Below are positions 9,168 to 53,349 of a stretch of DNA of 64,000 nucleotides, one piece after another. Numbering within the stretch: the stretch's first letter is position 1; every line of letters starts with the position of its first letter. Under the pieces are notes generated by a model. It was not told the origin of the DNA. It ran no database searches and saw nothing but the letters and a program-made list of their open reading frames with translations. Source of the DNA: Nepenthes gracilis (Eukaryota; Streptophyta; Magnoliopsida; Caryophyllales; Nepenthaceae); assembly GCA_033239525.1 (NCBI GenBank), contig BSYO01000014.1, positions 17,344,021 to 17,408,020 on the forward strand. The letters are read 5' to 3'. A program made the position numbers and the translations under genes.

Positions 9168-9849
9168 AATTTATTATACACGAATATATATAATAAATTC
9201 ATCAAGTAATATTTCGACCGATAATTTGTGTAATATGTCAGATAATTAAAAATTTATAAATAATTATTAATAAATATTAACTTGTTAAAATATTTAAATT
9301 TCTAACATAAACAAACAAATAAATATGTTTTGTAAAGAAACTTTAAAATGAAAAAGTGAAAAAGCAAAAAACTGGAAAATAGAAAATTATTTTGCCAGCT
9401 AAACAGGGCCTGAAATATTTGAAACATTTGAATAACCGGGATCGGATACCATGTCCATCGAAAGAAAGAAAGTCAAGCTTCGGCTGCTGAAAGTTTATAT
9501 CATGTGGTCTATTTGTAATGTCTTGATGTGGAAAAAGGATTCTGTTTTGAGGAGAAACAGAATCACCTCCTGTGGTGAATTGCTGGCAGGTTGATTTGTT
9601 GAACACGATAGCGGCTTTGGTTGTGGTAGATATCTGATCTCATACATGAACACCACAATTCAGTCGTCTATCCTATTGAATCCGTCATCGATGACTACTT
9701 GTTGTTTGGGAGCTAGTTCATTGTATTGGTCCTGCCATTCATCATGGAATTGCTTCAATTGCCCTTTGTACAGTTGGTTTCCTGACAGGAATAGATTGAT
9801 TACTATGAATTTGATACGTGCTCCATCGCCACGCGCTGAGGATCGACGA
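9168..9849. repeat. Direct duplication, right copy
   Basis: This is the right copy of the block at 7481-8250. Here the sequence passes without interruption into E1, whose left LTR starts at 9812 after the GAATT target site. Small deletions relative to the left copy occur near 9476-9500 and 9765-9790. Confidence 0.85.
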
Positions 9850-10201
9850 TGAAGTGTGACGGCAGGGGAGTTCTGGCAGAGAAGAAGAGGAAGAATACAA
9901 AGAAAAGAGAGGGTGCGAGGAAAATTAGGGAAAGAGAAGGGGAAGGGAACAGAGAGAGAGAGAGAGAGTAGAAATTGGGAAATATCTTTCTTCCTTCCTC
10001 AAGCATGAACAGTGATGGGTAAATATATCCGTAGCCAATAACAACCTTCACTTCCATGTGCAACTAATAATAGAATAAAATAATAGAAGAATGTAATCGG
10101 CAACAATCAAGCACAGAAATCCATAACAGAATTAACAAAATATAATTCTCTAATTTTAGAAAGTTTGCAGTTGTCGGTATTGTATTGACGAGTTCATATC
10201 A
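9812..10201 (-). repeat. E1 3' LTR
   Basis: This is the left LTR of E1, with termini TGATACG and CATATCA. It matches 13509-13890 along its length, including a GA run at 9951-9969 and the phrase TTTCTTCCTTCCTCAAGCATGAAC. Differences between the two LTRs are scattered at roughly one in ten positions by eye, so the insertion is not recent. Confidence 0.88.
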
Positions 10202-10202
10202 T

Positions 10203-10275
10203 TGCCGTCTCCATCAAAATAATTTTGTCTTCAAGGTTGAACGAGGAGAAAATTTGATGAAGTATTGCCACAGTT
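10203..10275 (-). pseudogene. Gypsy pol C-terminal relic in E1
   Basis: Minus-strand sequence reads ...HQIFSSFNLEDKIILMETAM and runs into the 3' LTR. FP-x-FNLEDKV is the usual end of chromodomain-bearing Ty3/gypsy polyproteins. Only this terminal piece is kept; upstream it joins ankyrin-type sequence, so almost all of pol has been replaced. Confidence 0.65.
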
Positions 10276-10403
10276 AAGCTGCCGATTAACCTGGTCCTCC
10301 ACCTACTGGTTCTTCTTGCAAATAGGGCAGCAGTTTCCCCCTTTGGTTTCTTTGCATCACACCCAGTTCCGCTACAAATTAAGGGCTCGCACACCCACCC
10401 TTG

Positions 10404-10547
10404 GTCACCTCTTGCTGCCAGCAAGAACGGTATGTTGCCGTATCCATCAGGAATGTAGGCGTCAAAATCCTTATTCTTTAACAACTTTACCGTTTCCAAG
10501 TTTCCTCGTCGTGTTGCACCATACAGGGCACCGAGTTCTCCGGCATT
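10404..10547 (-). pseudogene. Ankyrin-repeat fragment (ACD6-like) inside E1
   Basis: The minus strand is open for about 48 codons reading LYGATRRGNLETVKLLKNKD and then AYIPDGYGNIPFLLAARGD. The pattern (A-R-G-N-L-E-x-V-K-L-L, then D-x-x-G-N-I-P-x-x-x-A-A-x-x-G) is typical of ankyrin repeats in plant ACD6-type membrane proteins. It is one and a half repeats, with no start, no membrane part and other sequence on both sides, so it is a captured fragment rather than a gene. It is in the element's sense orientation. Confidence 0.65.
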
Positions 10548-50757: not shown

Positions 50758-51556
50758 ACCCATGGTGAGTATTCATCAGTGAAATCGCGCCATCAAAATG
50801 GAAGCCAACATACTTGTATACTTCCAGCAAACATCTTGCATTTGAGGCAGGAATCTCAGCACCTTTTGATTTTCTCAAGTGAAAAGACGAGGAACCCACA
50901 TTCCCTGATAACCCCGTTTTCCATAGTGGTAGTAGTGATCATCAGTTTCTTCAAACAGGTTCAGCCCTTCTAGGATAGTCTTTGACACATGATTATGCAC
51001 AATATTTCCTACGACAAATAGTCCTAGCTCACGGGCTCTATCTATCAAAGACTTGAGCTCTTCCGGAGTACCAAAACGACTTCTTGGTGCAAAACAAGTT
51101 GTCACATGGTACCCTAAACTAGCAAAATAAGAGTGCTCCTGAATAGCCATTACCTAAACAGCATCAAACCTTTTGGTGAGGGCAAGCATATCGTCTTTGA
51201 AGTTGGTACATGTGTTAATAACAGGCTCCGTACCACTCATGCCGATAGGTGACTCATAAATCCTGAGAGACTGTGGTCTCTTTGGCTGAGGATGTTTAAA
51301 TACATATACCTTCTCATCTGGGGGATCATGGGGTATCAATGCTAAACCTCCTACATTGTTTAGCCATAAGATCTTCTAAACACCAAACTCATTTCTAGCC
51401 AGAGCCTCAATAGTAGGATTCTGGTTATTGAAGTCTCCAATTAACGATGCTTGTTTCACTCCATAAGGCCATTCCATGTAAATAATCCCTGAGTCACCTT
51501 GGCAGAAATCAAGCTGCTCATAGCCATGAGAAAATGATAGCAAGCCCCCTAGGCCA
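50758..51556 (-). pseudogene. Captured starch branching enzyme fragment
   Basis: The minus strand carries plant 1,4-alpha-glucan branching enzyme (GH13) sequence: FSHGYEQLDFCQGDSGIIY, ASLIGDFNNQNPTIEALARN, YVFKHPQPKRPQSLRIYES, MAIQEHSYFASLGYHV, RFGTPEELKSLIDRARELG, GNIVHNHVSKTILEGLN and LEVYKYVGFHFDGAISLMN. About 40 residues are missing between LIPHDPPDE and the preceding block. The catalytic region survives as GFHFDG (GFRFDG in active enzymes), and IVHSH is changed to IVHNH. Stops occur near 51377 and 51156. It covers roughly 300 enzyme residues with no introns, although plant SBE genes have about twenty, so it is a processed copy. It joins NAT sequence near 50710-50757. Confidence 0.9.
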
Positions 51557-52340
51557 CATGAAACGACAGAAGTTTCTACATTTACTTTATCATCTTTAGC
51601 TTTAGGAGATTCTTACTTGTCACAACTCTTGGGTTGAGGGTCGAATTCATGTGTTGCCTGAGTATCAGTTAGGACCTTATTAGAAATTTCTAATTGACCG
51701 AGAGAGAATGAAGAGCCATCACTCTCAATCCCTGGAACCAGCACTGTCGTAGAAGCAACTACTGTTGCAGATCGGGAGTCTAACTCAAATGAGGACTTCT
51801 AAGCAAAGATCTGCCCTGAAGTTCGAATAAAAAAGGGCTCAAGATCAGCCTTGTAAGCAGCAGTCGGAGAAGTTTGGAAAAGCTAGGACAGAGTAGCTTC
51901 ATGATTCAAGGAGGATGAATGGGCGTCAGGTTAGGGTACATGATGATGGAGGGCGATTTGGTTGTCAGGTTGTGAGGGTACATGAAGATGGGGGACGATT
52001 TGGTTGTCAGGTTGTGAGGGTAGAATTATGGTTAAGATTTGGGTTGGAGTTGGAGGCTGCGGTGTTGGTATTGTGGTAGAAGGCGCCATGACCAAGCTAG
52101 TGTTTGGAAACAATGGTGAAGGGGAAACACCAACAGATGGAGAAGCCAATACTAGTGAAGGGGTCTGCGACCATGAAATAGATTGTCCCTTGATTCTTGT
52201 GAATGATTGACTGATTTCAGCAAGGAAGTGATGGATTTGTGCTATAGTGGAAGCGGTGGTGGCAATTCGGGTAGCAGGGGGTGGCAATTCAGCTAGCAGG
52301 TGGTTGTACGGACACAACGAAGGAAGCAATTTTGGGTTGG
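51557..52340 (-). other. E2 Pro/Ser-rich region, origin unclear
   Basis: The minus strand is open at 51931-52329 with Pro-, Ser- and Thr-rich sequence (SPSVGVSPSPLFPNTS; TIPTPQPPTPTQI) and a 14-residue tandem repeat ending in QPDNQIxxHxHVP, mirrored by a 42-base DNA duplication at about 51939-52022. Between it and the SBE piece, LVPGIESDGSSFSLGQLEIS and DTQATHEFDPQPKSCDK look like protein but were not recognised. Confidence 0.4.
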
Positions 52341-52344
52341 GTTT

Positions 52345-52870
52345 AAGGAAGAGGAAGAGCGGTTGTGGCGTCTAGTGGAGATGGTAGCATTCTGAGTGGG
52401 GTTTGGGTTGGGATTTGCAGATGTGATCGTGGAATCGTGGTCGACGATGTTCTAAACACAATGGTGGTTAAAAGCAACAATGAGTTGATGGATTGTAGCA
52501 GTTGTTGCTCGACTTGAGACCAGGGATGGAAAATTTCAATGAGGGAATTTGGAATTTGCTCAATGGTGGGAGTTTTAGGGGCGGTACCTAATGCGTGTTG
52601 TGATACGGTCACCTTCCACTCCTTTAACTCCTTCAACATTGCTGGTAAGCTAGGGTTTTGTTCAATGTTGTTGAGCGATGGAAGGATGTCAGCAACAGAG
52701 TGTTGAAAATGCGTGGTTGTGGAAGTAAGGATGGCAATTTTTGCTGCATATTGCCGAACGGTTGTCGCGACGTCCGCTATCTGCTTCGACAGCCTTGCAA
52801 TGGAGGCTTCGAGTGTGTCGAGTGCTCGTTATTCAATCATTATCTCCTTTTCTACATCTCAATGAGAGCA
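52345..52870 (-). pseudogene. Gag amino-terminal fragment of E2
   Basis: Next to the 5' LTR the minus strand reads RALDTLEASIARLSKQIADV (predicted coiled coil), HSVADILPSLNNIEQNPSLP, then MLKELKEWKVTVSQHALG and a longer open stretch to 52343. It aligns with E1's gag start, including the NIE-x-x-PSLP block. An early in-frame stop lies near the start. Confidence 0.7.
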
Positions 52871-52877
52871 CCAATAA

Positions 52878-53349
52878 TGCGTGCATGGCAGCGGTGGCAT
52901 GCAAGTTGTGAAGCAACCGATGGGATTAAAGGAAGATGGGAAGAGAAATCATAAGAAGAAGAAGAAGGGAAAGGAGAGTTCGGCAAAGGAATCGAGAGAG
53001 AAATGACAGAGAGAAGGGAGAAGGTTCGTGAGTGCAGAGAGAGAGAGATATATAAGACAGAAAGAAATGAGAAGCAAGTGTATTTTCTCTACTTCTCCCA
53101 TCTACAGTAACGGGCTTCTTAAAACAGTGAAGGGCAACAATTCATGGGCCCACAAAATAGAAAAACAAACATGGTTGAGGGAGAAGGAACACCTACGCTG
53201 GGACACAAAATAGAAAAAATAGAAAGGGGTTGATGCACGTGCAGGAAATATAAAATAGCATGCAGTATTCAGTAATATTGCCTGAACACTTTGTTTTCAG
53301 GTTAAAACTAGTGAGTGAGCTTCCGAGGGTATATCGAAGAGTTTGAACA
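52878..53349 (-). repeat. E2 5' LTR
   Basis: The LTR runs from TGCGTGCATGG to TTTGAACA. It matches both ends of the deleted 3' LTR and includes a GA-rich stretch near 53036-53050, as in E1's LTRs. On the minus strand the next bases are TTATTGGTGCTCTC. Confidence 0.8.

Follow-up and report, generated by a model that had tools for sequence, protein, structure and literature searches.

The stretch of DNA analysed here (the window) comprises 64,000 nucleotides of the 752.5-Mb genome of the pitcher plant Nepenthes gracilis (G000:C14:17344021-17408020). It contains two elements, E1 (9812-13890) and E2 (47946-53349), which lie on the minus strand and for which window positions are given throughout. 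An earlier note on this DNA had described both as retroelements with long terminal repeats (LTRs) within almost the same limits and, indeed, we located paired LTRs for each of them. The two LTRs of E1 (5′ LTR, TGATACGAACTC...GAATCA, at 13509-13890; 3′ LTR at 9812-10201) differ at 42 of 378 aligned bases, and a 5-bp target duplication, AATTC, stands on either side of the element (13891-13895 and 9807-9811). The primer-site-like motif TTGGTGCTCTCATT (13494-13507) falls within the reading frame of a coiled-coil-like leader (13200-13523), whose ATG at 13523 is inside the LTR and whose Pfam matches are all below the cutoff. Degenerate repeats of the PVAELDG type follow, in units of 24 or 36 nt (12673-13197); they are common to copies L009, L015 and L016 of the family described below. 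The cargo, that is the fragments of host genes, begins with a piece of a ubiquitin-activating enzyme E1 (11718-12199; Pfam E1_4HB, 1.1e-4, below cutoff), the remainder of which we take to belong to UBA1, and continues with a raffinose synthase piece (11472-11713; Pfam Raffinose_syn, 1.9e-11) and two weaker pieces, an SEP-domain fragment (10569-10715; 4.9e-4) and an ankyrin-repeat fragment (10356-10535; 2.7e-4), both below the Pfam cutoff. The tail, FSSFNLED, lies at 10227-10250. Beside E1, positions 7480-8230 and 9170-9811 form a tandem duplication, about 94-98% identical in blocks. The duplicate at 7480-8230 was considered as an empty site for E1 and rejected: it, too, has the last bases of an E1-type LTR, and the tandem duplication is therefore younger than the insertion of E1.

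E2 is built on the same plan and has no clear target duplication. Its 5′ LTR (52876-53349) is followed by TTGGTGCTCTCATT (52861-52874) and by a leader that contains NIEQNPSLPAML (52560-52860); at the other end, the FSSFNLED tail (48204-48227) precedes a 3′ LTR from which about 240 bp have been deleted (47946-48178). The cargo consists of a starch-branching-enzyme-like (SBE-like) fragment (50690-51640; Pfam Alpha-amylase, 4.2e-5) and a nucleobase-transporter fragment (48544-50707; Pfam Xan_ur_permease, 3.3e-13). Pfam supplies the families only; we presume the more precise names, ‘branching enzyme’ and ‘nucleobase-ascorbate transporter’. The transporter cargo is interrupted by a solo-LTR-like insertion of 988 bp with TG...CA ends (49631-50618, minus strand), flanked by GATAC at 50619-50623 and 49626-49630. 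All seven related copies read and aligned across this point (L035-L041) lack the insertion, and two of them (L037 and L038) are additionally without E2 positions 2659-2731, a further small gap. As judged by these alignments, the 988-bp insertion is later than the transporter cargo.

On sequence grounds, both E1 and E2 belong to a single large LTR retrotransposon family in N. gracilis. The E1 LTR with 99 bases of tail has at least 44 matches in the genome (the best 40 of 289 candidates being scored), and the leader protein of L009 (60 residues) has at least 150, all with E < 1e-17 (150 scored of 832 candidates). Among 20 genome regions fetched, 12 have an LTR pair and the E1-type structure (L009-L020), so that, with E1 and E2, 14 two-LTR copies could be compared. 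Three further regions (L023, L024 and L025) have the same interior with one LTR recognized, and L022, L026, L027 and L028 are single LTRs. Of five additional loci, L031 proved to be a further two-LTR copy, and the other four have a single LTR match within the 4.5 kb read. The interiors of the 14 copies measure 2.5-4.7 kb, and the LTRs of two-LTR copies diverge by a Kimura two-parameter distance (K80) of 0.077-0.207; such divergence is converted to ages with a rate of 1.3e-8. Inspection by eye revealed perfect 5-bp target duplications in seven of the 14 copies (AATTC in E1, CCAGC in L009, GTCTA in L016, CTAAC in L017, TAGTT in L018, TAATA in L019 and CCTCT in L020) and duplications matching at four of five bases in four others (L011, L013, L014 and L015).

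The copies share a frame at both ends. Near the end of the LTR stands ATGGAGCACGTATCA, and TGGTGCTCTCATTGAGA or a sequence close to it comes next; TTGGTGCTCTCATT is found within two mismatches beside the 5′ LTR in 13 of the 14 two-LTR copies, and no tRNA was matched to it. Self-priming was rejected as a candidate, the longest match to the complement of the motif inside five LTRs being 5-8 nt. In E1, L009, L012, L031 and L045, the leader frame has its ATG within the LTR, in a different context in L045, and crosses the primer-site-like motif (residues GALIE). The leaders of E1 and E2 can be aligned and have the block NIE-x-x-PSLP in common. In the family, the leader is followed by a linker rich in Ser, Thr and Pro or by PVAELDG repeats. 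The tail, NLEDxVILM, adjoins the 3′ LTR, and the portion common to all classes is only about ten residues long. The tail may resemble the end of a chromodomain, as would be the case in a derivative of a Ty3/gypsy chromovirus. The shared motif, the alignable leader and the FSSFNLED tail had all been pointed out before and are found in both E1 and E2. The names then given to them, ‘gag start’ and ‘pol tail’, fare less well: no Pfam family matches the leader above the cutoff, so that ‘gag’ reflects its position only, and the E2 tail, when scanned, obtained no Pfam support. What the earlier note had not described is that one reading frame continues from the LTR across the motif and the leader, and in some young copies across the cargo as well.

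The cargo was compared with its donor genes in the genome. The E2 transporter cargo (951 contiguous bases queried) matches C6:15784652-15789265 in separate pieces: at this donor locus (L042) eight exons are spread over 5.1 kb, and they are joined in E2, with seven introns missing. In the SBE-like cargo, positions 50994-51393 correspond to four exons of the donor at C31:874615-876405, and three introns are missing. The third donor, a pheophytinase gene (C5:4424329-4432297), has two exons separated by an intron of 653 bp, which the cargo of L015 lacks. At all 11 missing-intron junctions, GT and AG lie within six bases of the alignment ends, as seen by eye. For these three donors, the interiors are thus not ordinary genomic DNA with its introns, the finding that would have gone against the earlier note. 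Judged from these alignments, the cargo from the three donors is shown to be of mRNA origin, and since the introns are missing for all three genes tested, the pieces likely came from messenger RNA during reverse transcription.

To identify the cargo, sense frames were scanned first, and every Pfam match used comes from a sense frame. Among ten sense-frame pieces of E1 and E2, leaders included, three reach the Pfam cutoff, four match below it and three have no match; for ten pieces of L020, L013, L015 and L018 the numbers are two, two and six, respectively. L013 carries PARG (2.5e-11) and cytochrome c1 (1.2e-14), both at the cutoff. The cargo of L015 has a below-cutoff alpha/beta hydrolase match and is a pheophytinase by its named relatives; an open frame of this copy matches the protein Nepgr_009748 of N. 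gracilis (100% identity over 57% of the query). No identity was found for the second cargo piece of L015 or for the cargo of L020 among the scans made, and an assignment of the L018 cargo to patellin was dropped as unsupported on checking. In total, the 14 copies hold at least six unrelated cargo sets, reshuffled between backbones. No Pfam match to a reverse transcriptase, RNase H or integrase was obtained in the fragments and open frames scanned, which cover part of the frames of the copies, in line with what had been read from the letters alone.

Many of these pieces are inherited together. The SBE-like and transporter pieces are adjacent in 16 places, E2 included. At ten loci the pheophytinase piece ends at residue 263-264, and it starts at residues 46-51 in nine of them and at residue 1 in one. 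This last copy (C22:5045841-5046628) retains residues 1-45, absent from the other nine, and ends at the same residue 263; it is perhaps nearer to the original capture. The ubiquitin-enzyme and raffinose-synthase modules of E1 (q112-593 and q598-839, respectively) recur at other loci with fixed ends. Beyond the 14 copies, a leader match lies upstream of a cargo match in the correct orientation at nine places (on C37, C10, C14, C16, C1, C6, C34, C30 and C4); a leader-cargo pair on C27 was not counted because its order is wrong. As the same cargo is found at different sites with different target duplications, cargo-bearing elements have multiplied as units. Moreover, the nearest relatives differ along single elements. 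L010 has a class-A cargo (89.6% identity to L009 over 1,787 bp) with an LTR nearest to that of L012 (81%) and a leader nearest to that of L017, and L016 has an L013-type cargo (86.5% over 899 bp) with an LTR and tail nearest to those of L018. This shows an exchange of cargo between backbones. L010 also contains, at about 930-1880 of its interior and inside the class-A cargo, an insertion with inverted terminal repeats (CCTACGTTTGGTTG...), which is probably a small DNA transposon.

We then turn to copies in which leader and cargo are read as one. Eleven of the 150 leader matches have frames of at least 500 amino acids (aa), and eight of these loci were read (L045-L047 and L052-L056), chosen for their long frames. 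L045 has 1,207 open codons (1,186 from the first ATG, in the LTR). They span the leader, the linker, a cargo read in the leader frame that matches MFS transporters (1.9e-12), and the tail, and reach into the 3′ LTR; over the same stretch, the remaining two frames contain 60 and 61 stops. Between the two LTR pieces of L045, 11 of 302 bases are different (K80 0.037). L047 has the same frame (88% aa identity over 777 codons), and about 60 in-frame residues of L045 are absent from it at one point, so that the cargo can change in length while the frame stays open. L046 has 862 open codons, including an enolase match (1.8e-5, below cutoff), with a frame that is closed some 1 kb short of the 3′ LTR and LTR pieces that differ at three of 217 bases. 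The two youngest dated copies thus have long frames joining the leader and host pieces. In addition, OST48 is in frame with the leader in L053 and L055 (4.3e-20 and 1.2e-20, respectively) and DUF7798 in L052 (2e-8), while no accepted Pfam domain was found in L054 and L056. Leader and cargo therefore share one open frame in L045, L047, L046, L052, L053 and L055; in E1 and E2 the chimeric frame is broken.

Taken together, it is highly probable that we are dealing with a large LTR family in which the element's own enzymes go undetected where scanned and which carries host-gene fragments, likely gained when reverse transcription switched to host mRNA. An element consists, in order, of an LTR that contains the leader ATG close to its end, TGGTGCTCTCATTGAGA in the leader frame, the coiled-coil-like leader, the linker or repeats, a variable cargo zone and the NLED tail. 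Cargo would be gained when reverse transcription switches between packaged element RNA and host mRNA, with enzymes presumably supplied in trans by another element; cargo-bearing elements then multiplied as units and exchanged cargo with other backbones, likely via co-packaging. Template switching as the capture route is what we infer here. The idea of repeated mRNA capture by one family holds in that capture took place on more than one occasion, and has to be restricted in that many copies inherit a single capture: as the SBE-transporter junction and the pheophytinase end illustrate, capture events are far fewer than copies. Likewise, the conserved cargo slot proposed earlier does exist as a zone between the leader and the short tail. 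It is not a precise site, since the 3′ boundary differs between classes.

Several observations weigh against this reading. The intron check covers three donors only, and template switching leaves no unique mark in the present data. Only five of the 20 cargo or backbone fragments scanned reach the Pfam cutoff, and most of the cargo consequently lacks an identity. No target duplication was found by eye in L010 and L012, and that of E2 is not clear. An autonomous parent with the same LTR and primer-binding site, which the earlier note had expected, was not found: residues 1-60 of the L009 leader, compared with 5.8 billion proteins, gave 497 candidates (about 495-1575 aa in length), none with E ≤ 1 to the leader. 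The eight long-frame leader loci read have host domains or no accepted domain, and no polymerase. Finally, E2 is tied to the other 13 copies at the DNA level over about 75-90 nt of its leader only. Despite this thin link, the kinship of E1 and E2 is borne out by two loci with E2-type cargo (C37:7904080 and C10:20873385), the leaders of which are 82-83% identical to the E1-type leader.

We may wonder at this stage whether the family works as a frame-keeping gene-fusion machine, in which a fixed LTR-born leader and tail accept any in-frame piece of host mRNA and only copies with an open frame from LTR to LTR spread, whatever the protein. We regard this as possible, and only tentatively so. On base composition alone, the open frame of L045 would have a chance of about 2e-26; the fair null expectation is about one third per junction, because captured coding DNA is already open in one frame. 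One idea would be that the open frame is kept since broken transcripts are poorly translated or degraded. On the other hand, leader and cargo are in different frames in L015 and L018, by capture or by a later frameshift, and in-frame capture as a rule is unsupported because the long-frame loci were picked for their length.

The present diversity might instead derive from a single ancient capture, if one old chimeric cargo had since been only trimmed by deletions and shuffled. Modules with fixed boundaries in many loci and the inheritance of the SBE-transporter junction in 16 places would be expected in this case. We nevertheless consider it unlikely, as a single cargo would have to yield at least six unrelated sets in 14 copies, and the nine donors recognized at the Pfam cutoff or by named relatives, together with the weaker ones, would hardly fit in interiors of 2.5-4.7 kb. 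Moreover, the young copies L045 and L046 carry MFS and enolase domains that are not found in E1 or E2.

Less likely still is that the host fragments came as processed pseudogenes or retrocopies that were nested into the elements at the DNA level and then carried along. Retrocopies made by long interspersed nuclear elements (LINEs) are likewise intron-free, and nested insertions do occur in this family, as seen for the 988-bp block in E2 and the insertion with terminal inverted repeats in L010. The orientation of the cargo speaks against this explanation. All identified cargo is in the sense of the element, as the earlier note had stated, and scanning ten of the 15 antisense open stretches of at least 55 aa in E1 and E2 gave no accepted domain and one sub-threshold match (Exo70_C, E = 0.022). 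In addition, nine of the ten pheophytinase copies lack both ends of the protein and are internal pieces (46-51 to 263-264), and several copies have cargo that continues the leader frame.

Finally, a function of the chimeric proteins for the host or for the element, with the cargo sequence under selection, is very improbable: the long open frames in young copies and a ratio of nonsynonymous to synonymous substitution rates (dN/dS) of 0.65 over 777 codons between L045 and L047 would fit it, but the cargo domains are partial and no coding constraint was seen on the cargo of older copies in 58 windows from six classes, three of which show differences unevenly distributed among codon positions at the 5% level, the number expected by chance, with no third-position excess expected of coding constraint in the strongest (chi2 11.3, class C).

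Other features are found in the window. A HEC-type bHLH gene lies at 33847-34566, with its closest named relatives in Ancistrocladus, Dionaea and Drosera. At 21116-25798, two direct repeats of 242 bp without a single difference enclose open frames at 23659-24897; these frames look Ty1/copia-like to us, so that this is presumably a recent copia insertion. Open frames at 45026-47682, separated from the 3′ end of E2 by about 260 bp, belong to what we take to be a gene resembling a cation/proton exchanger.

That LTR elements take up spliced host RNA is already known, also for non-autonomous carriers and for elements with several genes (PMC13317346, PMC3726574, PMC4717578, PMC5664825). Bs1 of maize is an LTR element in which parts of three unrelated host genes are present as exons only, and it has given rise to a chimeric gene (PMC13317346, PMC4717578). 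The Nepenthes elements are Bs1-like in their intron-free host pieces between LTRs (for three donors) and in the chimeric open frame of the long-frame copies. However, Bs1 is described, in the available parts of these papers, with one set of host genes, whereas the Nepenthes family has many cargo sets on one backbone and mosaics between copies. The gene-carrying terminal-repeat retrotransposons in miniature (TRIMs) of soybean (GmaRetroS15) have 5-bp target duplications and exon-only fragments, and one element has fragments of three host genes; of the 30 gene-carrying elements, all except two have at least two copies, and their size is 1.2-1.4 kb (PMC4717578). The Nepenthes elements, whose interiors measure 2.5-4.7 kb and whose leader frame begins inside the LTR, are too large for TRIMs of this size. 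In pepper, LTR elements contain spliced NLR genes, and non-autonomous elements account for about 72% (PMC5664825); a single gene family predominates there, as far as the available text goes, whereas unrelated genes are fused as fragments in Nepenthes. For rice and sorghum, 672 and 1,343 genes, respectively, have been reported inside LTR elements (PMC3726574); these counts include any annotated gene within an LTR pair, and no single capture-prone family is described in the accessible portion of that paper. In the Veju and BARE-2 elements of Triticeae, chimeras have been attributed to switching between co-packaged RNAs (PMC13317346), the partner RNAs being, in the part of the account at our disposal, unknown sequence or another retrotransposon and not host mRNAs as in Nepenthes. 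Among the titles returned by a literature search, none concerns a capture-prone LTR family in Nepenthes, and the available part of the pitcher-plant genome paper mentions no such family (PMC12244726). The suggestion that the cargo slot may be undescribed thus has to be divided: LTR capture of spliced host RNA is already published, and what is new is this family, its mosaics and the chimeric frame from LTR to LTR.

As far as the available texts extend, published LTR gene capture consists of single cases, of one favoured gene family or of gene counts. One family with many copies, cargo sets and donors, and with young and old members, would make the capture rate, the rules of the junctions, the exchange of cargo and the fate of chimeric frames measurable in one genome. 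At least one annotated ‘hypothetical protein’ of N. gracilis (Nepgr_009748) is explained as element-borne. The family would also show how new open frames made of several pieces arise and, if frame-keeping fusion is true, it would steadily supply the genome with new chimeric open frames.

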